Below are positions 35,999-48,567 of a stretch of 64,000 nt of DNA, piece by piece; positions within the stretch are counted from its first letter, which is position 1, and every line of letters starts with the position of its first letter. The notes below the pieces were generated by a model that had not been told where the DNA came from, made no database searches, and worked only from the letters and a program-made list of their open reading frames with translations. The DNA is taken from assembly GCF_003434305.1 (NCBI RefSeq), contig NZ_QKKX01000011.1:62001-126000 (forward strand). The letters are read 5' to 3'. This DNA comes from Micromonospora sp. MW-13. GTDB taxonomy: Bacteria; Actinomycetota; Actinomycetes; Mycobacteriales; Micromonosporaceae. The translations under genes and the position numbers were made by a program.

Positions 35999-36083
35999 CG
36001 GTCCCCCTCGCCCGGCCCGCGCCACCCGGATACGGGCGGCCGGCGCGCCGGACCCGCCCGGTCCGACGGTACCGACCGCCCGG

Positions 36084-38717
36084 TCAGCCGGCGGTGACCA
36101 CCCGGTGCAGGCGGCGCGCCTCGGTCACCATCCGGGTCGTCCCGCTGCGGCCGGCCACCTCGGCCAGCCCCGCCACCTCGATCGCGACCCCGGTGCCCGT
36201 GGCGGTCTCGGCCGCCAGGGTCAGCAGGTCGGGCAGGCCCCGTGGCGGCGTGCGGGCGGCGAGCAGCGGCGGCAGCGCCGCGGCCAGCAGCCGCCACACG
36301 CTCAGCGGCGCCCCGGCCGTCGCCGCGTCGCGCAGCGGCTCGACCGCCCGGGTCAGCTTCACCACCTGCCCGGCGGCCAACTCGCCGAGCTGCCCGCCCA
36401 CCGCGGCGGCGTCGAGCCGGCCGGCGCCGGCCAGGGCGAGCAGGGCGTCCAGCGCGGCGACCCGGTCGGCGCCGTGGCGGGCCCCGAGGCCGTAGGCCAG
36501 CGCGAGGTCGACGGAGGCCCCGCCGGATCCGCCGCACTCGGCGAGCAGCGGCAGCGCCCGGGCACCGTCGCGGCGGTCCAGGTCCGCGGCGGCGGCCACG
36601 TCCGGCAGGAGGTGCGCGGCGACCACGCCCAGGTGGTGGGGCAGCACCGACGGCCACATCCGGGTCCAGCCGAAGTGGTCCGTCTGCATCGGGGCGGGGT
36701 CGGCGGTCAGCAGGCCGTACCGGTCGTCGTAGCCGTCCGGTGGGCGCAGCTCGACGGCGACGCGGCGGGCCGGGAGCTGGTCGTACTCCCAGTCGTAGCC
36801 GATCTTGCGGGCCCGGCGGGCGAGCGTGGTGACCCGGATGACGGGATCGGGCAGCCCGCCGCCGCGCAGCCAGGCGGCGAGCCGGTCACCGGCCGGGGTG
36901 CGCAGCGCCTCGGCCCGGCCGGCCAGCCCGTCGTCGACGGCGGTGGGCAGGCGCAGCAGCGCCTGGGTGAGGTCCCAGTGCCACGGCTCGCGGTCGCCGA
37001 GCGCGGCGAGCCGCTCCAGCAGGGCCAGCGGGTCGAGCGCGCCGTTGGCCGAGGTCGGCCTCGCGAGCAGGCCGGGGTGGCCCGGCTCGCCGAGGTGGTG
37101 GCCGACCTCCGCGACGCGGGCCCGCAGCAGGGCGTGCGGCGCCGGCACCCGGGAGTCGGTGCTGACCAGCTCCGGCTGCGACGGCGACCGGTTGGTGCGC
37201 CGCACGGCGGCCAGCAACGCGCTCCACCGGCTGCGGGGCTGGGCGGCCGGGGTGGGTCCGCCGGCGCCCTCCAGGACGTCGCCGACGAGGCCGCACAGGC
37301 AACACGGGTCCCAGCGGTGCTCGCTGGCCCAGGACCAGTGCCGGCGGCTCAGCACCGGGTCGAGCGCGGCGCGCACCCGGTCGCCGTCGGTCGCCGCGAG
37401 CCGGACCAGCCCGTCGAGGAGTCGGTCCAGCGGCTCGTCCCGGCTCTCCGTGCCGAGCAGCGCGGCGACCTCCTCAGCGAGCTCGTCGACGTCGGTGATC
37501 GGCGGCGGGGCGGCCGGGGGCGGGCCGGGGCGGGGCAGGTCGTCGCCGCGCGGGGCGGTGACCGTCGCGCCCGCGCCGGCGGCCGGGTCGAGGCCGTGGC
37601 GGGCGGCCAGGGCGGTGGCGCGCTCGCGCAGGTCGACGGCGGGATGCTCGGCGGCGACGGCGATCACCTCGGCGATCTCGGCGGCCCGGTCCCGGTGCCG
37701 GCGGGCGAGCCGGTCGAGCCAGGCGAGCTGGCCGCGCACCAGCGCCTTGTCCGGCCGCACCAGCACCTCGCGGGAGGTGTCGAGCACCGCGTCCAGCTCC
37801 AGGTCGGGCACCGCGCGCAGCGCCTTCTGCGCCGAGGTGGCGACGGCGCCGGGGGCGTCGGCGAGCAGTCGCAGGTAGTCGGTGGCGCGGGCGGCGACCT
37901 CGTCGGTGGTCGGCTGGAGCAGGTCGAGCAGCACGGTGAAGGCGCGCAGCGCCGCCGGCCGGTCGCCGCGCAGCAGCCGGCCGACCGCGCCGTCGAGCAG
38001 GGCGGCGCGGTCGACCAGCCCCTCGGCGGCGAGCTGGGCGAGCGCGGTCGGCAGGGCGTGCGGGCGGCGGTCCTTCCAGTCGGTGACGATCTCGTCGAAC
38101 ATCATCGGCGAGCCGAGACCGTCGACCTCGAACAGCCGGGGCAGCAGCGCCGGCAGGAACGGGTCGGCGCGTAGCCGGTCGAGCAGCGGCACGGGCGCGG
38201 CGCGCCCCGGCCGGTCGGGCCGCGACAGCGCGAGCACCCACAGCTCGACGAACCGGTCCCCGGGCGGCGGTTCGGCCTGCCCGGCGTGCAGCAGCGCGGC
38301 GATGAACCGCCAGTGCTCGACCTGGGTGTCGCGCTGGAGCTTCCCGGCCATCCGCAGGGCGAGGTCGGTGAGCCAGGTGATCCCGCGGTCCTCGGCGGCC
38401 CGCCGCACGAGAGCCGCGGCCCGCTCGCCGTCCACGGCGACGACGCGACGACTCAGGACGGGGGCCGCCTGGGCCGCACTGGGCAGGCAGCCGACCACGG
38501 CCACGGCCAGCGCGGTGCCCTTGCCGATACCCCACCAGGTGCTCCGCCGTGCCTTGAGCCAGTCGGTCAGCTCGGCGCCGACGGCGCGCCGCCGGTCCTC
38601 GGGCAACCCGGCCAGCGCGTCGACGATCAGCCCGGCCGATCCGGCGTCGATCAGGTCGAACAGGTCGCTGGTGCCACCGGCGGCCAGCTCCCACCGGCGC
38701 CGGACCGTGGTCTTCAC
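36084..38717 (-). CDS. DUF6493-like alpha-helical repeat protein
   Basis: An 877-residue protein, almost wholly alpha-helical and Leu/Ala-rich, with HEAT-like helix pairs (for example LPTALAQLAAEGLVDRAALL). It resembles actinomycete proteins annotated DUF6493. A Cys-rich spot RWDPCCLCGLVG occurs mid-protein and a conserved-looking KIGYDWEYDQLPARRVAVEL follows in the C-terminal third. There is no signal peptide and no enzymatic motif. Its GTG start overlaps the stop of the SWIM zinc-finger gene by 4 nt (GTGA), so the two form one translational unit. The biochemical role is unknown. Confidence 0.75.
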   Translation of the reverse strand: MKTTVRRRWELAAGGTSDLFDLIDAGSAGLIVDALAGLPEDRRRAVGAELTDWLKARRSTWWGIGKGTALAVAVVGCLPSAAQAAPVLSRRVVAVDGERAAALVRRAAEDRGITWLTDLALRMAGKLQRDTQVEHWRFIAALLHAGQAEPPPGDRFVELWVLALSRPDRPGRAAPVPLLDRLRADPFLPALLPRLFEVDGLGSPMMFDEIVTDWKDRRPHALPTALAQLAAEGLVDRAALLDGAVGRLLRGDRPAALRAFTVLLDLLQPTTDEVAARATDYLRLLADAPGAVATSAQKALRAVPDLELDAVLDTSREVLVRPDKALVRGQLAWLDRLARRHRDRAAEIAEVIAVAAEHPAVDLRERATALAARHGLDPAAGAGATVTAPRGDDLPRPGPPPAAPPPITDVDELAEEVAALLGTESRDEPLDRLLDGLVRLAATDGDRVRAALDPVLSRRHWSWASEHRWDPCCLCGLVGDVLEGAGGPTPAAQPRSRWSALLAAVRRTNRSPSQPELVSTDSRVPAPHALLRARVAEVGHHLGEPGHPGLLARPTSANGALDPLALLERLAALGDREPWHWDLTQALLRLPTAVDDGLAGRAEALRTPAGDRLAAWLRGGGLPDPVIRVTTLARRARKIGYDWEYDQLPARRVAVELRPPDGYDDRYGLLTADPAPMQTDHFGWTRMWPSVLPHHLGVVAAHLLPDVAAAADLDRRDGARALPLLAECGGSGGASVDLALAYGLGARHGADRVAALDALLALAGAGRLDAAAVGGQLGELAAGQVVKLTRAVEPLRDAATAGAPLSVWRLLAAALPPLLAARTPPRGLPDLLTLAAETATGTGVAIEVAGLAEVAGRSGTTRMVTEARRLHRVVTAG

Positions 38718-40048
38718 ACCCGCTCCCGCACGTCGGCGGTGGCCATCCGGGTGGCCAGCGCGTGCTTGCACGGCCCGCGCTGCCCGCGGTGCTTGGCCCA
38801 CCAGGGGCAGGTGCAGGTGAACCCGCCGTCGGGCAGCCGGCGGACCCGGTAGACCTCGTCGCCGCTGCGCACGGTGGCGCCGGCCTCGTCGGACGCGACG
38901 GCGCCGGCGTCGAGCAGCGCCCGCGCGCCGACCAGCCGCGGGTTGTCCCGTTCGGCCCGGCCCGCGTCGTACGGCATGACGCGGTGGAAGTACGCCGCCT
39001 CGGAGACGTCGTAGCCGACCCGCCCGGCGGTGCCGAGCTGCGCGAGGGCGCCCCGGACCCGGGCCGCGTCGATGCCGGCGGAGGCGGCCAGCGCGTCGAC
39101 GTCGACGGTCGGGTCCCAGGACAGCAGGGCGGAGATCAGCTCGGCGTCGTCGACGACGTCGTCGCCGGCCAGGGCGGTGAGGGCGGCGCCCTCGCCGGAG
39201 AACCCGCGGTAGGGCTCGGGGGACAGGGTCAGCGACAGCCGCAGGGCCCCGGTGTCGAGCTCCCAGGTGCTGGGCAGCGGCGCCGAGCCGGGCGTGGCGG
39301 TCGGGCCGTACACGCGCAGGGTCCGGGCGAAACGCAGCAGGCCGCGCAGGGCGGTCAGCCGGCCCGCGCCGGCGAGGCAGACCGCGCCGGGCACGGGCCG
39401 CGAGGTCAGCCGCAGGCCACGCCCGGCGGGCACCGCCCAGAGCACCGACCGGTCGTTCGACGTCGGCAGCCGGCGCAGGAACGCGGCGGCCTCGACCGCC
39501 GGGATCTCCGCCCGCGGCTCGAACGCCGCGGCCAGGACCTGCACCTCGGCGAAGCCGCGCAGCCAGCGCACCGGCAGCGGCACCTTCTTCTCCACCACCG
39601 CGCCGTCCATGGTGGAGACGGTCAGGTCGTCGGGGCCGACCGACAGGTGCAGCGGGTCGAGGCCGCCGACCCGGGCGAGCGACTGGCGCAGCGGGTTGTT
39701 GACGTCGACGTTGGTGGTGCCGTGCTCCACCACGTCGCCGTCGAGGCCCTCCGGCAGGGCGTCGAGGCGGGCGTAGACCCCGCAGCAGCCGGAGAACGAC
39801 TCGAACCGCAGCCGGTCCCGGCTGCCGGTGACGACCGGGTCGAGGCTCGCCGGGCTGACCGGCCGGTAGTAGCGGGTGCGGGCCACCTCGGCCACGGCGA
39901 GCAGCCCGACGGCGGCGGCCTGCGGCGTGGTGAGGAAGCCGGTGAAGAACCGGGGGTTCGGCGCCGGGCCGCCGCTGGTCTGCAACGCGAGGCCGGTACG
40001 GCTCAGCGCCGAGGACCCCAGGTACCGGTACGTCTGTTGGGCGTTCAC
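38714..40048 (-). CDS. SWIM zinc-finger protein
   Basis: A 444-residue protein whose C-terminus carries a SWIM zinc finger: CTCPWWAKHRGQRGP followed by CKHALA (CxCxnCxH). The N-terminal 350 residues are an uncharacterised mixed domain. SWIM fingers bind DNA or proteins. The GTG at 40048 lacks a Shine-Dalgarno site. A TATCGT hexamer (40062-40057, minus strand) ends 9 nt before it, suggesting a nearly leaderless transcript. It is coupled to the DUF6493-like gene. In enterobacteria a SWIM protein (YehQ) accompanies MoxR/VWA proteins; no such partners are seen here. Confidence 0.8.
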   Translation of the reverse strand: MNAQQTYRYLGSSALSRTGLALQTSGGPAPNPRFFTGFLTTPQAAAVGLLAVAEVARTRYYRPVSPASLDPVVTGSRDRLRFESFSGCCGVYARLDALPEGLDGDVVEHGTTNVDVNNPLRQSLARVGGLDPLHLSVGPDDLTVSTMDGAVVEKKVPLPVRWLRGFAEVQVLAAAFEPRAEIPAVEAAAFLRRLPTSNDRSVLWAVPAGRGLRLTSRPVPGAVCLAGAGRLTALRGLLRFARTLRVYGPTATPGSAPLPSTWELDTGALRLSLTLSPEPYRGFSGEGAALTALAGDDVVDDAELISALLSWDPTVDVDALAASAGIDAARVRGALAQLGTAGRVGYDVSEAAYFHRVMPYDAGRAERDNPRLVGARALLDAGAVASDEAGATVRSGDEVYRVRRLPDGGFTCTCPWWAKHRGQRGPCKHALATRMATADVRERV

Positions 40049-40264
40049 GGGCCCGGACGATACAAGATCGCTCCGACAGTTCTCGCCGGGCGGATCACGC
40101 GGATCGGTCGGCCTCGGCGTGGACAGCTGGCCGCCCGGCAGCGGGCCCTGGCCGCCGAGCCGGCCCTGCGCCGGACCGTCGTGATCGGGCACAGCACAAC
40201 CTGGCCGGATCGCCCCCGTCGGCGCGCCCTTGCACCCACGGCCGGCTTCGACACAGGCCCGGCG

Positions 40265-40339
40265 TGATCGTCTGCTGATTTGTGAGACGACACGCCGGGC
40301 GAGTTCTCCATGGACAGCAAACGATCATGGAGAGTCGCC
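40265..40339. repeat. Interleaved inverted repeats (extragenic palindrome or pseudoknot-forming)
   Basis: Arm A TGATCGTCTGCTG (40265-40277) pairs with CAGCAAACGATCA (40315-40327; one mismatch). Arms B, GGCGAGTTCTCCATG (40298-40312) and CATGGAGAGTCGCC (40326-40339; one bulge), enclose the right arm of A in their loop. Transcribed, this could form a pseudoknot; as DNA it may be a REP-like or MITE-like element. It lies in the 882-nt gap 40049-40930, where I found no gene that I can support. Confidence 0.6.
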
Positions 40340-40786
40340 CCCCACGAAGGGAGGGGCGGCGCTAGGGCGCGTGTCATCCAGCGCGATCGTGTGCGCTCGT
40401 ACGGCGCGTTAAGCGCTCGGCGGAAGGGGTCGGCTACAGGGCCGTCAGGTACAGTACGGGCCGACACGGCCAGCAGGCGGGCCAGCGCCACCGCGACGGC
40501 GGCCTCCCACCGCGGATTCCACCGCCCAGGCGGCTCGCCCGGCGGTATGCCGGGCCGCCCCTCTCGCAGAGCCTCCCATCCGAGCGGCGTCTGACGCGGG
40601 GAGGCATCGCCGGTGGCGGACCGCCTCTGGGTCCAGCCACACCGCCTGCCAGCGTCCGAAGTCTCCGACGCGGGTCGCTACCGGCCGCCCGCACCGGACA
40701 CACGCGAGACTAGGGCCGTCTCGCTCGTGAACAAGGTCATGCGAACTCCCGAGCCCTCACCCGCGAACGCGGTCTCAGCTCCCGAC

Positions 40787-40833
40787 GGCCCGATGAGGCA
40801 TCGGGCCACGGTATGAGGCATCCGATATATATT
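40787..40833 (+). promoter_or_regulatory. Hairpin, direct repeats and -10 upstream of the S8-like gene
   Basis: GGCCCGATG-agg-CATCGGGCC (40787-40807) is a perfect 9-bp hairpin. ATGAGGCATC occurs twice (40793-40802 and 40813-40822), 20 nt apart, and TATATT (40828-40833) follows as a possible -10. No matching -35 hexamer is seen, so an activator bound at the direct repeats is possible. The S8-like gene starts about 90 nt downstream. Confidence 0.45.
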
Positions 40834-40930
40834 CGTCTCCCTGGATGATGGGTAGGCTCGGCCCAGTCCGTTCGCGTCGTCTCCCCGGCGGCATCTGGCC
40901 CCGGAGACGGCCAGAGCACGGGAGGCCGGG

Positions 40931-42130
40931 ATGACGCCGCCACGCAACCGCCGCCGGTCCGCCGCCATGGCCGTCCTGTTCGCCCCGGTCGTGGCCGCCG
41001 CCATGGCCGGGACTCCGGCCGGCGCGGCACCGGCCGCCGGCGACATTCTGCGGGCGGGCGGGGCCAGCGCCGTCGAGGGCAGCTACGTGGTGGTGCTCGC
41101 CGACAGCGGGCGAACCGCCGCCGACTCGGCCACGCGGCTCGCCGCCCGGTACGGCGGTTCCGTCGGCCAGGTCTACGGTGCCGCGCTGCACGGTTTCGAG
41201 GCCCGGCTGCCGGAGCGGGCCGCCCGGCGACTGGCCGCCGACCCGGCCGTGGCGTACGTCGAGCAGAACCACGTGGTGTCGCTGGCCGCCGGGGTCCAGC
41301 TCAACCCGCCGTCGTGGGGCCTGGACCGCATCGACCAGCGCCTGCTGCCGCTGGACCAGCGCTACGCCTACCCGAACACCGCGCCCGGCGTGCACGCGTA
41401 CGTCGTCGACACGGGCATCCGCGCCACCCACGTCGACTTCACCGGCTCCGCCGCAGGCGGGTACGACGCGGTCGACGGCGCCCTGCCCGCCGACGACTGC
41501 AACGGCCACGGCACCCACCTCGCCGGCACCGTCGGCGGCCAGCAGCACGGGGTCGCCAAGGACGTCCGCCTGGTCCCGGTGCGGGTGCTCAACTGCGCCG
41601 GCAGCGGCACCTACGCGCAGGTCATCGCGGGGGTCGACTGGGTCACCGCGAACGCGGTGAAACCCGCGGTGGCCACCATGGGCCTGGGCGGCAGCGCCAG
41701 CACCGCGCTCGACAGCGCGGTGACCGCCTCCATCAACTCCGGCGTGACCTACACCGTCACCTCGGGCAGCTCCGCCACCAACGCCTGCAACTACTCCCCG
41801 TCGCGGGTGCCGGCGGCGCTCACCGTCGCCGGCACCACGCCGACCGACGCCCGGATGAGTTCCGCCAACTACGGCTCCTGCCTGGACCTGTTCGCCCCCG
41901 GCCAGGGCATCACCTCGACCTGGCACACCAGTGACACCGCCACCAACACGATCAGCGGCGGGCCGATGGCCGCCGCGCACACCGCCGGGTGCGCGGCCCT
42001 GGTCCTCCAGGACCACCCCACCTGGACCCCCGCCCAGGTCGCCGCCCACCTCACCGGCACCGCCACCACCGGCGTCGTCGGCGCTCCGGGAGCCGGCTCG
42101 CCCAACCGGCTGCTCTACTGCGGCGGCTGA
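40931..42130 (+). CDS. Secreted S8 (subtilisin/kexin-fold) protein lacking catalytic Ser; probable pseudoprotease
   Basis: A 399-residue preproprotein with a signal peptide (about residues 1-33), an I9 inhibitor-type propeptide (about 48-120; YVVVLAD, FEARLPE, VAYVEQNHVV) and a proteinase-K-like S8 domain. Catalytic Asp 160 (VVDTG) and His 193 (NGHGTH) are present. The serine box, normally SGTSMAxPH, reads SGGPMAAAH, so Pro 345 replaces the nucleophile. The oxyanion-hole Asn (AAGN) reads TSGS (Ser 280). MSLGG reads MGLGG and the final PHVAG reads AHTAG. Reading frame, signal and ribosome site (GGGAGG) are intact, which argues for a folded non-proteolytic protein, for example a binding or decoy protein. 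Confidence 0.85.
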   Translation: MTPPRNRRRSAAMAVLFAPVVAAAMAGTPAGAAPAAGDILRAGGASAVEGSYVVVLADSGRTAADSATRLAARYGGSVGQVYGAALHGFEARLPERAARRLAADPAVAYVEQNHVVSLAAGVQLNPPSWGLDRIDQRLLPLDQRYAYPNTAPGVHAYVVDTGIRATHVDFTGSAAGGYDAVDGALPADDCNGHGTHLAGTVGGQQHGVAKDVRLVPVRVLNCAGSGTYAQVIAGVDWVTANAVKPAVATMGLGGSASTALDSAVTASINSGVTYTVTSGSSATNACNYSPSRVPAALTVAGTTPTDARMSSANYGSCLDLFAPGQGITSTWHTSDTATNTISGGPMAAAHTAGCAALVLQDHPTWTPAQVAAHLTGTATTGVVGAPGAGSPNRLLYCGG

Positions 42131-42145
42131 GGTCGCGGCGGCCTG

Positions 42146-42832
42146 TCAGGGCCGGTAGCGGTAGCCCATTCCGGGCTCGGTGATGAGGTGTCGCGGACGG
42201 GCCGGGTCGTCCTCCAGCTTGCGCCGCAGTTGGGCCATGTACTGGCGCAGGTAGTTGGTCTCGTTCTGGTACTCCGGTCCCCACACCTCGTGCAGCAGCT
42301 GGCGCTGGCTGATGAGCTTGCCCGGATGGCGCAGCAGCCGGTCGAGCACCGCCCACTGGGTGGGGGTGAGCCGGACCTCCGCGCCGTCGTCGCGGGTCAC
42401 CGTGCGGTCGACGAGGTCGACGGTGTGCCGGCCCACCCGGGGGGCCGCCGTCGCCCCGTCGGCCGCCGGGGCGGCGAGGCGTCGGGTGACCGCGCGGATG
42501 CGGGCGAGCAGCTCGTCGACGCCGAACGGCTTGGTGACGTAGTCGTCGGCGCCGGCGTCGAGGGCGGCGACCTTGTCCTCGCTGCCCGCCCGGCCGGACA
42601 GCACGATGATCGGCACCGTCGTCCAGCCGCGCAGGCCCCGGATCACCTCGACGCCGTCGAGGTCGGGCAGGCCCAGGTCGAGGACCACCAGGTCCGGCGG
42701 ATGGGCGGCGGCGGCCCGCAGCGCGGCGGCGCCGGTCTCGGCGACCTGCACGTCGTACCCGCGGGCCCGCAGGTTGATGCGCAGGGCCCGCAGGATCTGC
42801 GGTTCGTCGTCGACGACGAGGATGCGGCTCAT
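42146..42832 (-). CDS. kdpE: Response regulator KdpE
   Basis: A 228-residue OmpR-family regulator with a receiver domain (DDEPQ acidic pocket, phospho-Asp in VVLDLGLPD near residue 52, Lys in VTKPFG near 102) and a winged-helix DNA-binding domain (about 130-228; TPTQWAVLDRLLRHPGKLIS, YRYRP). It is activated by KdpD and drives the kdp operon under potassium limitation. Its ATG overlaps the kdpD stop by 4 nt. It is convergent with the S8-like gene, 15 nt apart, with no obvious terminator between. Confidence 0.93.
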   Translation of the reverse strand: MSRILVVDDEPQILRALRINLRARGYDVQVAETGAAALRAAAAHPPDLVVLDLGLPDLDGVEVIRGLRGWTTVPIIVLSGRAGSEDKVAALDAGADDYVTKPFGVDELLARIRAVTRRLAAPAADGATAAPRVGRHTVDLVDRTVTRDDGAEVRLTPTQWAVLDRLLRHPGKLISQRQLLHEVWGPEYQNETNYLRQYMAQLRRKLEDDPARPRHLITEPGMGYRYRP

Positions 42833-45381
42833 TCCTGCGGCCCTTCGGTGCCGGTAAGGGTGGCGGCGGGCAGGCGCAGCACCATGGTCAGCCCGCCGCC
42901 CGGGGTGGTCTCGGGGGTGATGCTGCCACCCATCGCCTCGGCGAGGCCGCGGGACAGGGCGAGGCCGAGCCCCACACCGGTCTGGTTGTCCCGGTCGCCG
43001 AGGCGCTGGAAGGGCAGGAAGACGTGTTCCCACTGGTCCTCGGGGATGCCGGGGCCGGTGTCGATGACCCGCAGCTCCACCTGCCCGGCGTGGGCGCTGG
43101 CGGTGACGGTGGGCGGCCGGCCGGGCGGGCTGTGCCGCAGGGCGTTGGCGACGATGTTGACCAGCACGCGTTCCAGCAGGCCGGGATCCGCCAGCGCGGC
43201 GGGCAGGTCGGCGGGGATGTCGGTGGCGACGTCGGCGGCGGCCGGGCCCAGCTCGTCCAGGGCCCGCGGCACCACGTCCTCCAACCCGATCGCGGCGGCG
43301 GCCACGCCGAGCGCGCCGGCCTGCAACCGGCTCATGTCCAGCAGGTTCGCCACGAGGCGGCCCAGCCGGTCCAGGGACTCGTCGGCGGTGGCCAGCAGCT
43401 CGTCCCGGTCGTCGGCGTCGAACTCGACGTCGTGGCTGCGCAGGCTGCTCACCGCCGCCTTCGCCGAGGCGAGCGGCGTACGCAGGTCGTGGCTGACGGC
43501 GGCGAGCAGCGCGGTGCGCATCCGGTCGGCCTCCGCCAGCGGCCGGGCGGTCGCCGCCTCCTCGGCGAGGCGTTCCTGGCGAAGCGCCACGGCGGCCTGG
43601 GCGGCGAACGCCTCGACGACCCGCCGGTCGGCGGCCTCCAGCCGCCGGCCGGCCAGCACGACGGTGAGCCGGTCGTCGACCGGTACCGCCGTCTCCCCGG
43701 CGTCGGGGCTGGTCGCCGGTGCCTCCCCGACGGCGGCCACCAGCCGCCAGACGTCCCGCTCGTAGGCCCGGTTGGGGCGTCCCCGCGCGTCCGGTGCCAG
43801 TTCCAGGACGCTGACGGCGCGCAGCGCGAACGTCTCCCGCAGCCGGTCCAGCAGCGCCGGCAGCGGGCGCTCGCCGCGCAGCACGCCGCCCGCGACGGTG
43901 GCGAGGGTCTGCGCGTCGGCGGAGGCCCGCGCCGCCTCCCGGGTGCGCCGGGCGGCCACGTCGACGACCCAGCTCACCGCCAGGGCGACGCCGACGAAGA
44001 CGCCCAACGCGAGCAGGTTGTCCGCCTCGGCGATGGTCAGCGTGTGAAACGGCGGGGTGAAGAACCAGTTCAGCAGCAGCGACCCGCCGAGGGCGGCGAC
44101 CAGCGCCGGCCACAGGCCGCCGACCAGCGCCACCCCGACGACGCCGGCGAGGAACAGCAGGATGTCGTTGGTCAGGGTGAGGTCGGGCAGCGCGCTCAGC
44201 GCCCCGGTGAGCGCCGGCATACCGAGCCCGGCGAGGGCGAAGCCGAGCAGCCGGCGCCGCCGGGACAGCGCGGCCGGCAACCCACCGGTCCGCCGGCCCC
44301 GCCCCGCCTGCGGGTGGGTGACCAGGTGCACGTCGATCGGCCCGGACAGGGCCGTGGTGGTCACCCCTACGCCCCGGCTGAGCAGCTGGGCGAACCGGCC
44401 CCGGCGGCTGGCGCCCAGGACGAGCTGGGTGGCGTTGACGCCGCGGGCGAAGTCGAGCAGCGCGGCCGGCACGTCCGTGCCGAGCACCTGGTGGTACGTG
44501 CCGCCGAGGCTCTCCACCAGCACCCGCTGGCGGGCCAGCCGGGCGGGGTCGACGCCGGCCAGGCCGTCGCTGCGGGCGACGTGCACGGCGAGCAGGTCGG
44601 CGCCCCGGCCCCGGGCGGCCACCCGGGCCGCCCGACGGATCAGCGTGTCGCCCTCCGGCCCGCCGGTCAGCGCGACGACGACCCGTTCCCGGGCCTCCCA
44701 GGTGTCGGAGATGCCCTGCTGGGCGCGGTAGGCGCCGAGCTGGTCGTCGACCTTGTCGGCGAGCCAGATCAGGGCCAGCTCGCGCAGGGCCGTGAGGTTG
44801 CCGATCCGGAAGTAGTTGCCGAGCGCGGCGTCGATCTTGTCGGGGCGGTAGATGTTGCCGTGGGCCATCCGGCGGCGCAGCGCCTCCGGGGTCATGTCGA
44901 CCAGCTCGACCTGCTCGGCGGCGCGGACGACGGCGTCGGGGATCGTCTCGCGCTGGGTGGTGCCGGTGATCTGGGCGACGACGTCGTTGACCGATTCGAG
45001 GTGCTGGACGTTGACCGTGGACAGCACGCAGATGCCGGCGTCCAGCAGCTCCTGCACGTCCTGCCAGCGCTTGTCGTTGCGGGAGCCGGGCACGTTGGTG
45101 TGGGCCAGCTCGTCGACGACCGCGATCTCGGGCCGGCGGGCCAGGAGCGCGTCGAGGTCCAGCTCGGTGAACTCGACGCCCCGGTGCGCGAGGGCGCGCC
45201 TGGGCACCTGCTCCAGGTCGCCGATCATGGCGGCGGTGTGCGGGCGGCCGTGGGTCTCGACCAGCCCGATCACCACGTCGGTGCCGCGTTCGGCCCGCCG
45301 CCGGGCCTCCTGGAGCATCGCGTACGTCTTGCCGACGCCGGGCGCGGCCCCGAGGTAGATGCGCAGTTCCCCTCTGGGCAC
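42829..45381 (-). CDS. kdpD: Potassium-sensing histidine kinase KdpD
   Basis: An 850-residue sensor kinase. In order it has the KdpD N-terminal domain with Walker-type AAPGVGKTYAMLQEA and DELAHTN, a universal-stress-protein-like domain (about 250-360), four transmembrane helices (about 385-480), a GAF-like region, a dimerisation helix with the phospho-accepting His in VSHDLRTPLAS, and an ATPase domain (NIVANALRHSP N-box, DTGPGIPEDQW G1). It is the full family length. The GTG at 45381 is 97 nt after kdpC, and the stop overlaps kdpE. Confidence 0.93.
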   Translation of the reverse strand: MPRGELRIYLGAAPGVGKTYAMLQEARRRAERGTDVVIGLVETHGRPHTAAMIGDLEQVPRRALAHRGVEFTELDLDALLARRPEIAVVDELAHTNVPGSRNDKRWQDVQELLDAGICVLSTVNVQHLESVNDVVAQITGTTQRETIPDAVVRAAEQVELVDMTPEALRRRMAHGNIYRPDKIDAALGNYFRIGNLTALRELALIWLADKVDDQLGAYRAQQGISDTWEARERVVVALTGGPEGDTLIRRAARVAARGRGADLLAVHVARSDGLAGVDPARLARQRVLVESLGGTYHQVLGTDVPAALLDFARGVNATQLVLGASRRGRFAQLLSRGVGVTTTALSGPIDVHLVTHPQAGRGRRTGGLPAALSRRRRLLGFALAGLGMPALTGALSALPDLTLTNDILLFLAGVVGVALVGGLWPALVAALGGSLLLNWFFTPPFHTLTIAEADNLLALGVFVGVALAVSWVVDVAARRTREAARASADAQTLATVAGGVLRGERPLPALLDRLRETFALRAVSVLELAPDARGRPNRAYERDVWRLVAAVGEAPATSPDAGETAVPVDDRLTVVLAGRRLEAADRRVVEAFAAQAAVALRQERLAEEAATARPLAEADRMRTALLAAVSHDLRTPLASAKAAVSSLRSHDVEFDADDRDELLATADESLDRLGRLVANLLDMSRLQAGALGVAAAAIGLEDVVPRALDELGPAAADVATDIPADLPAALADPGLLERVLVNIVANALRHSPPGRPPTVTASAHAGQVELRVIDTGPGIPEDQWEHVFLPFQRLGDRDNQTGVGLGLALSRGLAEAMGGSITPETTPGGGLTMVLRLPAATLTGTEGPQE

Positions 45382-45478
45382 GGGCGGGTCCTTCCGGTGG
45401 GCGGGCCGTCCGGCGGCGCGGCCGTGGTCGGGGCGGTGACCGCCGGGCGGGCCTGTCGTGGCCCGCCCGGCGAGGGGT

Positions 45479-46360
45479 TCAACGAGCGGCGAACCGCTGG
45501 TCGAGGGCGAGGTTCAGCTCCAGCACGTTAACGCCGGGGGCGCCCAGGAAGCCGAGCGCCCGGCCGGTGGTGTGCGCGGCCACCAGCCGCCGGACCGCGG
45601 CCGGGTCCGCGCCGCGTTCCCGGGCCACCCGGGCGACCTGGATCTCGGCGTACGCGGGGCTGATGTGCGGGTCGAGGCCGCTGCCGCTGGCGGTGACCGC
45701 GTCCGCCGGTACGGCCGGCTCGGCGGGGGCGTCGCCGCGGACGGGGACGATCACCGCCCCGGCGGCGACGTGGTCCACGCCCGGTCGCGCCGGCTCCACC
45801 GGGACGCCCTGCCACGTGGTCACGAACGGGGTGGCGGGGGCGGCCTGGTTGACGCTCACCACCCGGGTGACCGGCCCGGTCAGCCCGTCGCGGTGGAACA
45901 CGCCCAGGACGGCGCCGACGCCGTCGGCGGTGCAGTACGGCCGGCGGCCGTCCACGCCGTCGAGCCGGCCGATCGCCCGGCTGCGGGCGCAGACCTGGGT
46001 GAGCAGGCTCTCGGTCGACTCGGCCGGGTCGGCGGCGAGGGTGTCGACGATGCTCTCCGGGCCGAGGTTGGAGGCGGCGGTGGAGGTGGGGTCGTAGCCG
46101 TCGCCGGCCGCCGAGGGGCGGGACTGAAAGTAGCGCGGGACGGGATTGCCGTCGGCGTCGGTGAAGGACTGGCCGATCAGCGCGCTGCCGACGGTCCGGC
46201 CGCCGGCGGCGACGAGCGAGCCGTCCGCCCCGGCGGCCAGGCCGGGCAGGCGGCCGGCGGCGACCAGGGCCAGCGGGTACGCCAGGCCGAGCAGGACGGT
46301 GAACACGAGCAGGGCGCGCAGGGCGGCCAGGTGTTGGGCGAGCCAGGTGGGTAGGCGCAT
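45479..46360 (-). CDS. kdpC: K+-ATPase subunit KdpC
   Basis: A 293-residue subunit with one N-terminal transmembrane helix (about residues 14-36; LLVFTVLLGLAYPL) and an outer domain containing YFQSRPSAAG and SGSGLDPHISPAYAEIQ, both hallmarks of KdpC. It is longer than the roughly 190-residue E. coli protein because of a mid-domain insert (about 100-200), as in other actinomycetes. The ATG at 46360 shares one base with the kdpB stop (TGATG); a GTG one codon earlier is possible. Confidence 0.92.
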   Translation of the reverse strand: MRLPTWLAQHLAALRALLVFTVLLGLAYPLALVAAGRLPGLAAGADGSLVAAGGRTVGSALIGQSFTDADGNPVPRYFQSRPSAAGDGYDPTSTAASNLGPESIVDTLAADPAESTESLLTQVCARSRAIGRLDGVDGRRPYCTADGVGAVLGVFHRDGLTGPVTRVVSVNQAAPATPFVTTWQGVPVEPARPGVDHVAAGAVIVPVRGDAPAEPAVPADAVTASGSGLDPHISPAYAEIQVARVARERGADPAAVRRLVAAHTTGRALGFLGAPGVNVLELNLALDQRFAAR

Positions 46361-48567
46361 CACGAGATCCCTGGGATGAACTGGATGAGCAGGTCGATGA
46401 GCTTGATGCCGACGAACGGCACGATGATGCCGCCGAGGCCGTAGACCAGCAGGTTGCGGCTGAGCAGTTTGGCCGCCGCCGCCGGGCGGTAGCGGACGCC
46501 CCGCAGGGCCAGCGGGATCAGCGCGATGATCACCAGGGCGTTGAAGACGACCGCCGAGAGGATCGCCGACTGCGGGCTCGCCAGCCGCATGACGTTCAGC
46601 GTGTCCAGGCTGGGATAGATGCCGGCGAACATGGCCGGGATGATGGCGAAGTACTTCGCGATGTCGTTGGCGATCGAGAAGGTCGTCAGGGCGCCCCGGG
46701 TGATGAGCAGTTGCTTGCCGATCTCGACGATCTCGATGAGCTTGGTCGGGTCGGAGTCGAGGTCGACCATGTTGCCGGCCTCCTTCGCCGCCGAGGTGCC
46801 GGTGTTCATGGCCACCCCGACGTCGGCCTGGGCGAGCGCCGGGGCGTCGTTGGTGCCGTCCCCGGTCATCGCGACCAGCCGGCCGCCCTGCTGCTCGCGC
46901 TTGATCAGGGCGAGCTTGTCCTCCGGGGTGGCCTCGGCGAGGAAGTCGTCCACGCCCGCCTCGTCGGCGATCGCCCTCGCCGTCCGCGGGTTGTCGCCGG
47001 TGATCATGACGGTGCGGATGCCCATCCGGCGCATCTCGTCGAACCGTTCCCGCATGCCGGCCTTCACGACGTCCTTGAGGTGGATCACGCCGAGGGCCCG
47101 CGCCGGCTCACCGTCGACGTGCTCGGCCACCACCAGCGGGGTCCCGCCGATGCCGCTGATCTCGTCGACGACCTGGCCCACCTGCTCGGTGGGGTGGCCG
47201 CCGTGCTCGCGGACCCACTTCATCACGGCCGCCGCCGCGCCCTTGCGGACCCGCCGCGCGGGCCCGGTGGCGCCGCCGTCGACCGTCGCGTCCGGCGTGA
47301 GGTCGACGCCGCTCATCCGGGTCTGGGCGGTGAACGGCACGAACGTGGCGTGCGGCACGAGGCCGGGCTCCCGCTCCCGCAACCCGAACTCGTTCTTGGC
47401 CAGGACCACCACGGACCGGCCCTCCGGGGTCTCGTCGGCGAGGCTGGCCAACTGCGCCGCGTCGGCCAGTTCGGCGGCGGTGACCCCCTCGACCGGCAGG
47501 AACTCGGCGGCCTGCCGGTTGCCCAGGGTGATGGTGCCGGTCTTGTCCAGCAGCAGGGTGTTCACGTCGCCGGCGGCCTCGACCGCCCGGCCGCTCATCG
47601 CCAGGACGTTGCGCTGGACGAGGCGGTCCATGCCGGCGATGCCGATCGCCGACAGCAGCGCGCCGATGGTGGTGGGGATGAGGCAGACCAGCAGCGACAC
47701 CAGCACCACGCCGCTGACCCCCGCGTCGGTGATCGCGCCGGTGTCCGGGGCGGCGGCCTGGTACTGCTTGGAGAAGGCGGCGAGGGGCTGCAACGTCACC
47801 ACGGCGAGCAGGAAGACGACCGTGAGCGCGGCGAGCAGGATGTTCAGCGCTATCTCGTTCGGCGTCTTCTGCCGGTTCGCCCCCTCGACCAGGGCGATCA
47901 TCCGGTCGATGAAGCTCTCCCCCGGCTTCTGGGTGATCCGCACGACGATCCGGTCGGAGAGCACCCGCGTGCCGCCGGTGACCGCGCTGCGGTCCCCGCC
48001 GGACTCCCGGATGACGGGGGCGGACTCGCCGGTGATGGCCGACTCGTCGACGCTGGCGATGCCCTCGACGACGTCGCCGTCGCCGGGGATGATCCCGCCG
48101 GCGCAGACCAGGACGACGTCGCCCCGGCGCAGCTCGGGCGCGGGCACCGCCTCGTCGCGGTAGGCGTTGGCGGGGGCGCCCGGGGTCCAGCCGACCAGTC
48201 GGGTGGCGATGGTGTCCTGCTTGGCCCGGCGCAGGGTGGCGGCCTGGGCCTTGCCCCGCCCCTCGGCGACCGCCTCGGCGAGGTTGGCGAACAGCACGGT
48301 CAGCCAGAGCCAGCCGGTGATGGCCCAGGCGAAGACCGACGGGTCGGTCGCCGCGAGGACGGTGGTGAAGGCCGCGCCGATCTCGACGATCAGCATCACC
48401 GGGTTGCGCCACAGGGTGCGCGGGTCGAGCTTGCGCAGCGCCTCCGGCAGGGAGGTCAGCAGCTGCCTCGGGTCGAGCAGGCCGCCGGCCCGGTCGCCCC
48501 TGGTGGCGGGCGTGCCGGGGGTGGCCTGGTCGACCCCGCCGTGCGGCGCCTGCGGGGAAAGGGTCAT
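46360..48567 (-). CDS. kdpB: K+-ATPase catalytic subunit KdpB
   Basis: A 735-residue P-type ATPase with actuator motif TGES, phosphorylation motif DKTGTIT, nucleotide-domain features and hinge [16 protein letters not shown]. It hydrolyses ATP to drive potassium uptake through KdpA. The N-terminus is extended by about 40 Pro/Gly-rich residues. Of three in-frame starts (GTG 48591, ATG 48582, ATG 48567) I chose 48567 for its AGGA site 8-9 nt upstream; GTG 48591 would overlap the kdpA stop (GTGA) and is a real alternative. Confidence 0.92.

Follow-up and report, generated by a model that had tools for sequence, protein, structure and literature searches.

This study concerns a stretch of 64,000 nucleotides from Micromonospora sp. 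MW-13, referred to here as the window. It carries a gene whose predicted product has the fold of a subtilisin-like protease and a proline in place of the nucleophilic serine. The locus raises the question of whether this is a protease gene in decay or one that has been kept for something other than cutting, and in the latter case what its product would do. An initial annotation, made from the sequence alone, had called the product a probable pseudoprotease and considered a repurposed fold more likely than recent decay. On the evidence presented below, the best explanation is that the gene encodes a secreted, folded subtilase no longer able to cut.

The gene, its predicted fold and its surroundings

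The gene and the features around it, all on the forward strand, were as follows.
40793..40822 (+), direct repeat ATGAGGCATC-N10-ATGAGGCATC, exact copies; candidate operator
40920..40925 (+), GGGAGG, ribosome-site-like, 5 nt ahead of the ATG; read directly
40931..42130 (+), putative pseudoprotease gene, 399 aa, secreted proteinase K-type; from ORF translation, Pfam and model m3e1770f44144
40931..41029 (+), probable signal peptide, about residues 1-33; boundary set by eye from the sequence read only
41126..41284 (+), I9 propeptide domain, residues 66-118; Pfam match (Inhibitor_I9)
41291..42127 (+), mature subtilase domain, model residues 121-399; aligns with proteinase K-like structures

The reading frame opens with the ATG at 40931, ends with a stop codon at 42130 and encodes 399 amino acids. 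The frame, coordinates and residues of the initial annotation were all found as it gave them, and its clean frame and ribosome site correspond to an intact ORF with GGGAGG 5 nt from the ATG. Pfam detected two domains only, the I9 propeptide and Peptidase_S8, the latter over residues 158-381 with 102.1 bits against a cut-off of 21.8. The S8 match was also present in all 44 rows of an aligned set (A1). Assignment as a type VII secretion mycosin (TIGR03921) was rejected, with 86.3 bits against a curated cut-off of 278.75.

The model of the window protein had a mean pLDDT of 85.8, falling below 50 over residues 1-4 and 6-27 in the signal peptide region. Residues from about 121 to 399 superposed on seven proteinase K-like entries with Z 45-46 and rmsd 1.4-1.9, the value of 46 being that of the mature domain against aqualysin. 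The nearest solved structures were aqualysin I, a Meiothermus keratinase and ProteinT protease, with 52-62% identity over the mature domain. Both the Pfam score and the structural match (Z 46) thus place the protein in the S8 family. The pTM was 0.86 for the model of a canonical paralogue and 0.71 for that of the window protein. Model confidence was low beside the nucleophile position (mean pLDDT 52 over residues 331-340), and this dip was not taken as a sign of a disordered pseudo-active site, because the canonical paralogue showed a similar one (51 at 341-350) when its model was built from the 44 rows used for the window protein. The GSG and LGG strands, which we take to be the lining of the substrate cleft, were at least 90% conserved over the 44 aligned rows, clade and canonical proteins pooled.

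The structured upstream region that the initial annotation had described did not hold up: the folding z-scores were -1.72 for 150 nt and -1.14 for 100 nt, and 14 of 200 and 25 of 200 shuffles, respectively, folded at least as well. Scans for sigma-70 promoters and for terminators found none. The direct repeat lies about 110 nt ahead of the gene, and no second site of this kind was found in the genome when up to 3 mismatches were allowed. Its first copy falls inside a predicted 9-bp hairpin. In M. rubida one copy of ATGAGGCATC is exact and the other has a single mismatch. The spacing of the two copies, about two helical turns, suggests an operator. On the other side, at 42146-46363 on the reverse strand, frames that were named by eye from their translations as response regulator-like, KdpD-like sensor kinase and KdpC-like converge on the gene. 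Next to the M. rubida copy, the KdpD-like gene and another common gene are arranged in the same order, and the other neighbours vary between groups of clade loci.

Active-site changes across the clade and their order

The search of 151 genus genomes found at least 36 genes in 35 genomes scoring at least 507 bits, with the next match at 481. A search of 354 family genomes added at least 13 genes at 501 bits or more, with the next at 487.5; of these 13, one belongs to the genus and the remaining 12 are spread over four further genera of the family. The named records among all of these were Micromonospora and Plantactinospora. Identical cores were merged, matches ending before query residue 385 were excluded, and row L001, the window itself, was not counted. 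The counts are lower bounds, because weaker matches were read in part and a fixed number of candidates was scored per genome. In a tree of 90 rows, comprising all 49 clade genes and 41 of the 86 canonical ones, the 49 fell on one side of a branch with an SH-aLRT of 98, the trait columns having been left out. Within the clade L130 diverged first, though on a long branch.

A wider spread of the clade beyond the family was rejected: among the matches listed in a class-level search, 29 of 29 loci (27 outside the family, 2 in the genus) were ordinary Asn/Ser/Pro proteases. The window genome itself holds two further close relatives, L002 (64% identity, motifs GTSMAAPH and AAGNS) and L003 (55%), both with Asn and Ser.

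The residues of interest in the window protein, with their state in the 49 clade members, are listed below.
41408..41410 (+), Asp160, catalytic acid position; kept in 49/49
41507..41509 (+), His193, catalytic base position; kept in 49/49
41681..41683 (+), Gly251 replacing the Ser of MSLGG; A or G in 45/49
41768..41770 (+), Ser280 (AGC) replacing the oxyanion Asn; S in 44 and G in 5 of 49
41960..41962 (+), Gly344 replacing the Thr before the nucleophile; not Thr in 46/49
41963..41965 (+), Pro345 (CCG) replacing the nucleophile Ser; Pro in 5/49
41975..41977 (+), Ala349 replacing the Pro four residues past the nucleophile; Ala in 49/49
41990..41992 (+), Cys354, gained together with Cys397; 48/49
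42119..42121 (+), Cys397, gained together with Cys354; 48/49, possible disulphide, pairing inferred

Read directly, the serine box is SGGPMAAAH and the oxyanion motif TSGS, Asp160 and His193 are present, and MSLGG and PHVAG have become MGLGG and AHTAG, all as initially annotated. The window protein therefore lacks two features of an active S8 proteinase K-type peptidase, the complete Asp-His-Ser triad (Pro345 at Ser) and the oxyanion Asn (Ser280).

The residue comparison covered 49 clade and 86 canonical rows, and a class-specific residue scan used 83 canonical rows, with 3 left out. The oxyanion Asn was absent from all 49 clade genes and from none of the 86 canonical relatives. The Thr preceding the nucleophile was found in 3 of 49 against 86 of 86, and the MSLGG Ser had changed to Ala or Gly in 45 of 49 against 3 of 86 (Gly); Asn, Thr and this Ser were all gone at once in 42 clade members. 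The change from Pro to Ala four residues past the nucleophile was invariant in the clade (2/86 in canonical rows), and the Phe of ASFSNYG was Ser in 47 of 49 against 0 of 86. Four old cysteines, conserved in the canonical relatives too, were retained in 49/49, and the new pair, Cys354 and Cys397, was missing from one and the same row, L130. Subtilisin residue numbers were assigned through the motifs GTSMA, MSLGG and ASFS rather than by a computed alignment to subtilisin. Ser125, Asn155 and the Thr220-Ser221 pair are described as one interlocked zone in subtilase cores, in which Thr220 contacts Asn155 (PMC11593635). Judged from the aligned residues, the clade has altered this zone and retained Asp and His.

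The nucleophile position held Ser in 44 clade genes and Pro in five, namely those of the window, M. rubida (93% identical), M. okii, M. haikouensis and genome G006. The Pro codon was CCG in 5/5, one base away from the TCG found in 40 of the 44 Ser-bearing members. Pro345 is not a sequencing or assembly error and not unique to this strain, since Pro occupies this column in four other genomes as well. Because the Asn is gone in 49/49 and the Ser still present in 44/49, the alignments indicate that the oxyanion hole was lost first and the nucleophile later. The substitutions initially annotated are real, but the loss of the oxyanion Asn extends over the whole clade and predates the Pro. Likewise, the term pseudoprotease is firm for the Pro subgroup only, as 44 of 49 clade members retain Ser.

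The protein tree needs three changes to Pro, and a single Pro clade was not rejected (AU p 0.127). An rpoB tree was built from 100 of the 151 genus genomes (the 35 clade-bearing ones, G103 and 64 of the 115 others, non-random picks from the output list). In this tree, four Pro carriers and G103 formed one species group (97), with M. okii outside the sample; G103, inside the group, has no clade gene.

That the window protein has remained a peptidase by means of a different nucleophile close to His193 is extremely improbable. In favour of it, neither Asp160 nor His193 has changed, but the oxyanion residues are gone as well. Ser342, the sole other Ser in the box, is no special replacement because it is common to 82 of 86 canonical rows, and a Ser344 found in three of the five Pro carriers is absent from the window and M. 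rubida.

The Ser-bearing majority may be a different matter. These proteins could be slow or single-turnover enzymes that cleave their own propeptide, as PCSK9 does, with the window subgroup having lost that step. We regard this as plausible, at rather less than even chances, and it is compatible with the best explanation given above. Ser, His and Asp are kept in 44, 49 and 49 of the 49 members despite the lost oxyanion Asn. PCSK9 autoprocesses and then works by binding, and its prodomain is inhibitory; it keeps the triad and the oxyanion Asn and carries a C-terminal Cys/His-rich domain (PMC8198903). Since PCSK9 retains the Asn, its chemistry would not be the same as that of the clade. The window protein shares with it a subtilase fold proposed to act by binding, but has both Ser and Asn replaced, and its last residue, 399, still belongs to the subtilase domain. 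PIMMS2 of Plasmodium berghei, likewise subtilase-like and proposed to be a pseudoenzyme, keeps the Asp, His, Ser and Asn residues, with the motifs around them absent (PMC5520436).

The invariant change from Pro to Ala matches, by motif position, the P225A of subtiligase and peptiligase (PMC7921005), and this opens another reading. The Ser-bearing majority would be natural acyl-transfer enzymes that join or cap peptides outside the cell, and the Pro subgroup a later binding-only offshoot modulating the acyl-transferases or the active partner protease. The oxyanion pocket would have been rebuilt, with Pro225 changed to Ala and the primed-side Phe189 equivalent to Ser; an acyl-enzyme would form slowly and be passed to an amine rather than to water. 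We consider this highly improbable, and the lost Asn argues against efficient acyl transfer. The engineered ligases have Cys221 and keep Asn155 (PMC7921005), whereas the window protein has Pro345 and Ser280, and its 44 relatives have a Ser nucleophile without the Asn.

Several rows showed further variation around the active site. L139 (G310), a Ser-bearing clade member, reads GSSASAH; the residue after the nucleophile is missing, so that the active-site helix begins with a gap of one residue. Clade members L017 and L026 read GGSPATAH, with Pro at the Met222 position plus Ala at 225; M222P and substitutions of Pro225 are also found in engineered peptide ligases (PMC7921005). L003 of the window genome, L050 and L123 form a second divergent subgroup. 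They keep Asn and Ser, carry Gly where MSLGG has its Ser, and show the motif GTSHAAPH or GTSQASAH; in two of the three rows the subtiligase position is also Ala. One canonical relative (G051:C31:114047-115246) contains a single in-frame TAG stop, which may be decay elsewhere in the protease family or a sequencing error.

Constraint on the mature domain

In the mature domain, the window and M. rubida genes differed by 12 nonsynonymous and 22 synonymous changes (p<1e-6), and the other close Pro pair by 16 and 22 (p<1e-5); the neutral expectation in this test was about 75-79% nonsynonymous. The dN/dS check across relatives that had been proposed for this gene thus rejected neutrality in both pairs, and the mature domain of the Pro-bearing pairs is, on this substitution pattern, under purifying selection. 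The NG86 mature-domain ratios of the two pairs were 0.19 and 0.26. Mature-domain dN/dS ranged from 0.13 to 0.59 in the 25 closest clade pairs listed and from 0.03 to 0.19 in the 25 closest canonical pairs listed. The values of the two Pro pairs fell among those of Ser-bearing clade pairs and equalled or exceeded those of the canonical pairs listed. In the propeptide of the window and M. rubida pair, 11 nonsynonymous and 7 synonymous changes gave no significant constraint (p 0.12-0.21).

Canonical paralogues of the same genomes were used as controls. For the other pair (G006 versus G150) the canonical dN/dS was 0.14. For the window genome versus M. rubida (L002 versus L143 in G011) it was 0.70 at a dS of 0.107, an unusually fast and unexplained value.

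These data bear on recent decay, by which the gene would be inactive and on its way out. The clade does evolve faster than its canonical relatives in the closest pairs listed, and the lack of significant constraint on the propeptide of the window pair points the same way. Against this, the frame and the ribosome-site-like sequence are intact, the Pro form occurs in five genomes, the mature domain is non-neutral in both close Pro pairs, and Asp, His and the four old cysteines are kept throughout the clade. We therefore rate recent decay as improbable, and decay unique to this strain is ruled out by the five-genome Pro form together with the mature-domain constraint. The preference for a repurposed fold in the initial annotation was supported by the Pro in five genomes, the non-neutral mature domain, the shared active-site changes and the gained Cys pair.

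A possible partner protease and the role of the protein

In 16 of the 49 clade loci a canonical paralogue, 70-84% identical to L002, was found directly upstream on the same strand, its match ending 53-95 nt ahead of the aligned start of the clade gene. These tandem loci include three of the five Pro carriers and L130. As they keep Asn and Ser, the upstream paralogues are judged active by sequence. The window and M. rubida loci have no upstream paralogue. When the paralogue of the window genome was searched against 36001-46500, only the window gene itself was found and nothing in the 1700 nt upstream, which ruled out a remnant of a tandem partner there. In the window genome the canonical paralogue is instead unlinked.

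The L002 subfamily (at least 600 bits; next match 575) was present in 23 of 151 genus genomes, that is in 22 of the 35 clade-bearing genomes versus 1 of the 116 others (Fisher p 2e-16). G103 is the genome with the partner and without the clade gene, and 13 of the 35 clade genomes had no partner-subfamily match above the 600-bit cut. Clade gene and partner were not adjacent in 11 of the 22 co-occurring genomes, the window genome included. The co-occurrence is suggestive and not proof, because on the rpoB tree of 100 genomes it was clustered, with 4 well-supported independent pairs, too few for a tree-aware test.

With these results we tentatively favour, at not quite an even chance, a maintained secreted pseudoprotease that is probably a peptide-binding regulator of an active paralogue. 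The sequences show that the oxyanion Asn was lost in the ancestor of the clade, with changes in the surrounding residues and with Asp and His retained, and that Ser gave way to Pro at the nucleophile later, in the window's subgroup. The mature domain has stayed under purifying selection. We infer that the substrate cleft still holds a peptide or the propeptide and that the protein acts by binding. Its likeliest partner would be the active proteinase of the paralogous subfamily, upstream in the tandem loci and represented by L002 elsewhere in the window genome, which it may regulate as a scaffold, decoy or inhibitor. With its own nucleophile gone, the I9 domain would stay attached or be cut in trans by the paralogue. 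If the propeptide were needed, the lack of significant constraint on it in the window pair would be unexpected, and the dN/dS of 0.70 for L002 leaves it not clear whether the partner is constrained between the window genome and M. rubida.

A kept pseudoprotease might instead have no partner protease and an independent role, binding peptides, wall material or the protease inhibitors of competitors. In favour of this, constraint on the mature domain coexists with the loss of catalytic residues. No paralogue lies directly upstream of 33 of the 49 clade genes, the window's among them, 13 of 35 clade genomes have no match to the partner subfamily, and the neighbourhoods otherwise vary between groups. 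The co-occurrence with the partner subfamily speaks against it, as does the tandem arrangement in L130, the first to branch off in the clade. We hold this independent role to be possible, on the doubtful side.

A precedent for the regulator reading exists in Clostridioides difficile, where CspA and CspC are inactive and CspB is active within the same subtilase family, and where the CspC prodomain is uncleaved owing to triad substitutions (PMC6636752). CspA and CspC resemble the window protein, a putatively inactive subtilase that also has a canonical member, active by sequence, in its gene family. A CspC:CspA complex was reported in 2026, and according to a heading of that report CspB is not in the complex (PMC12880746); for this reason a regulator of an active protease is one model among several. 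CspC is a spore protein with a jelly-roll insertion of about 130 residues in its subtilase domain, and it has lost other triad residues, His and Ser being replaced by T170 and G485 (PMC6636752). The window protein, in contrast, is nearest to proteinase K-like enzymes, and its mature domain, about 279 residues long, can be aligned over its whole extent with enzymes of similar length and has no jelly-roll insertion. It shares with proteinase K-type subtilases the fold (Z 45-46, 52-62% identity) and the Asp and His. Canonical relatives encoded in the same genomes also have its I9 propeptide and four conserved cysteines. It differs from proteinase K-type subtilases in the replaced Ser, oxyanion Asn, pre-nucleophile Thr and MSLGG Ser and in the extra Cys pair.

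Subtilase pseudoproteases are already known from clostridial spores and from eukaryotes, and there is no new fold here. Among the results listed in searches of open papers, no actinobacterial S8 clade lacking the oxyanion Asn came up. As far as literature searches show, a secreted proteinase K-type clade without this Asn and with the triad otherwise mostly kept is new, and so are the nested loss of the nucleophile and the association with a canonical subfamily. In this secreted actinobacterial lineage the losses can be put in order, the oxyanion Asn going first and the nucleophile last, in one subgroup only, with Asp and His lost in no clade member seen. As canonical and altered copies adjoin in cultured soil bacteria, the fate of a protease fold after the loss of its chemistry is directly testable.
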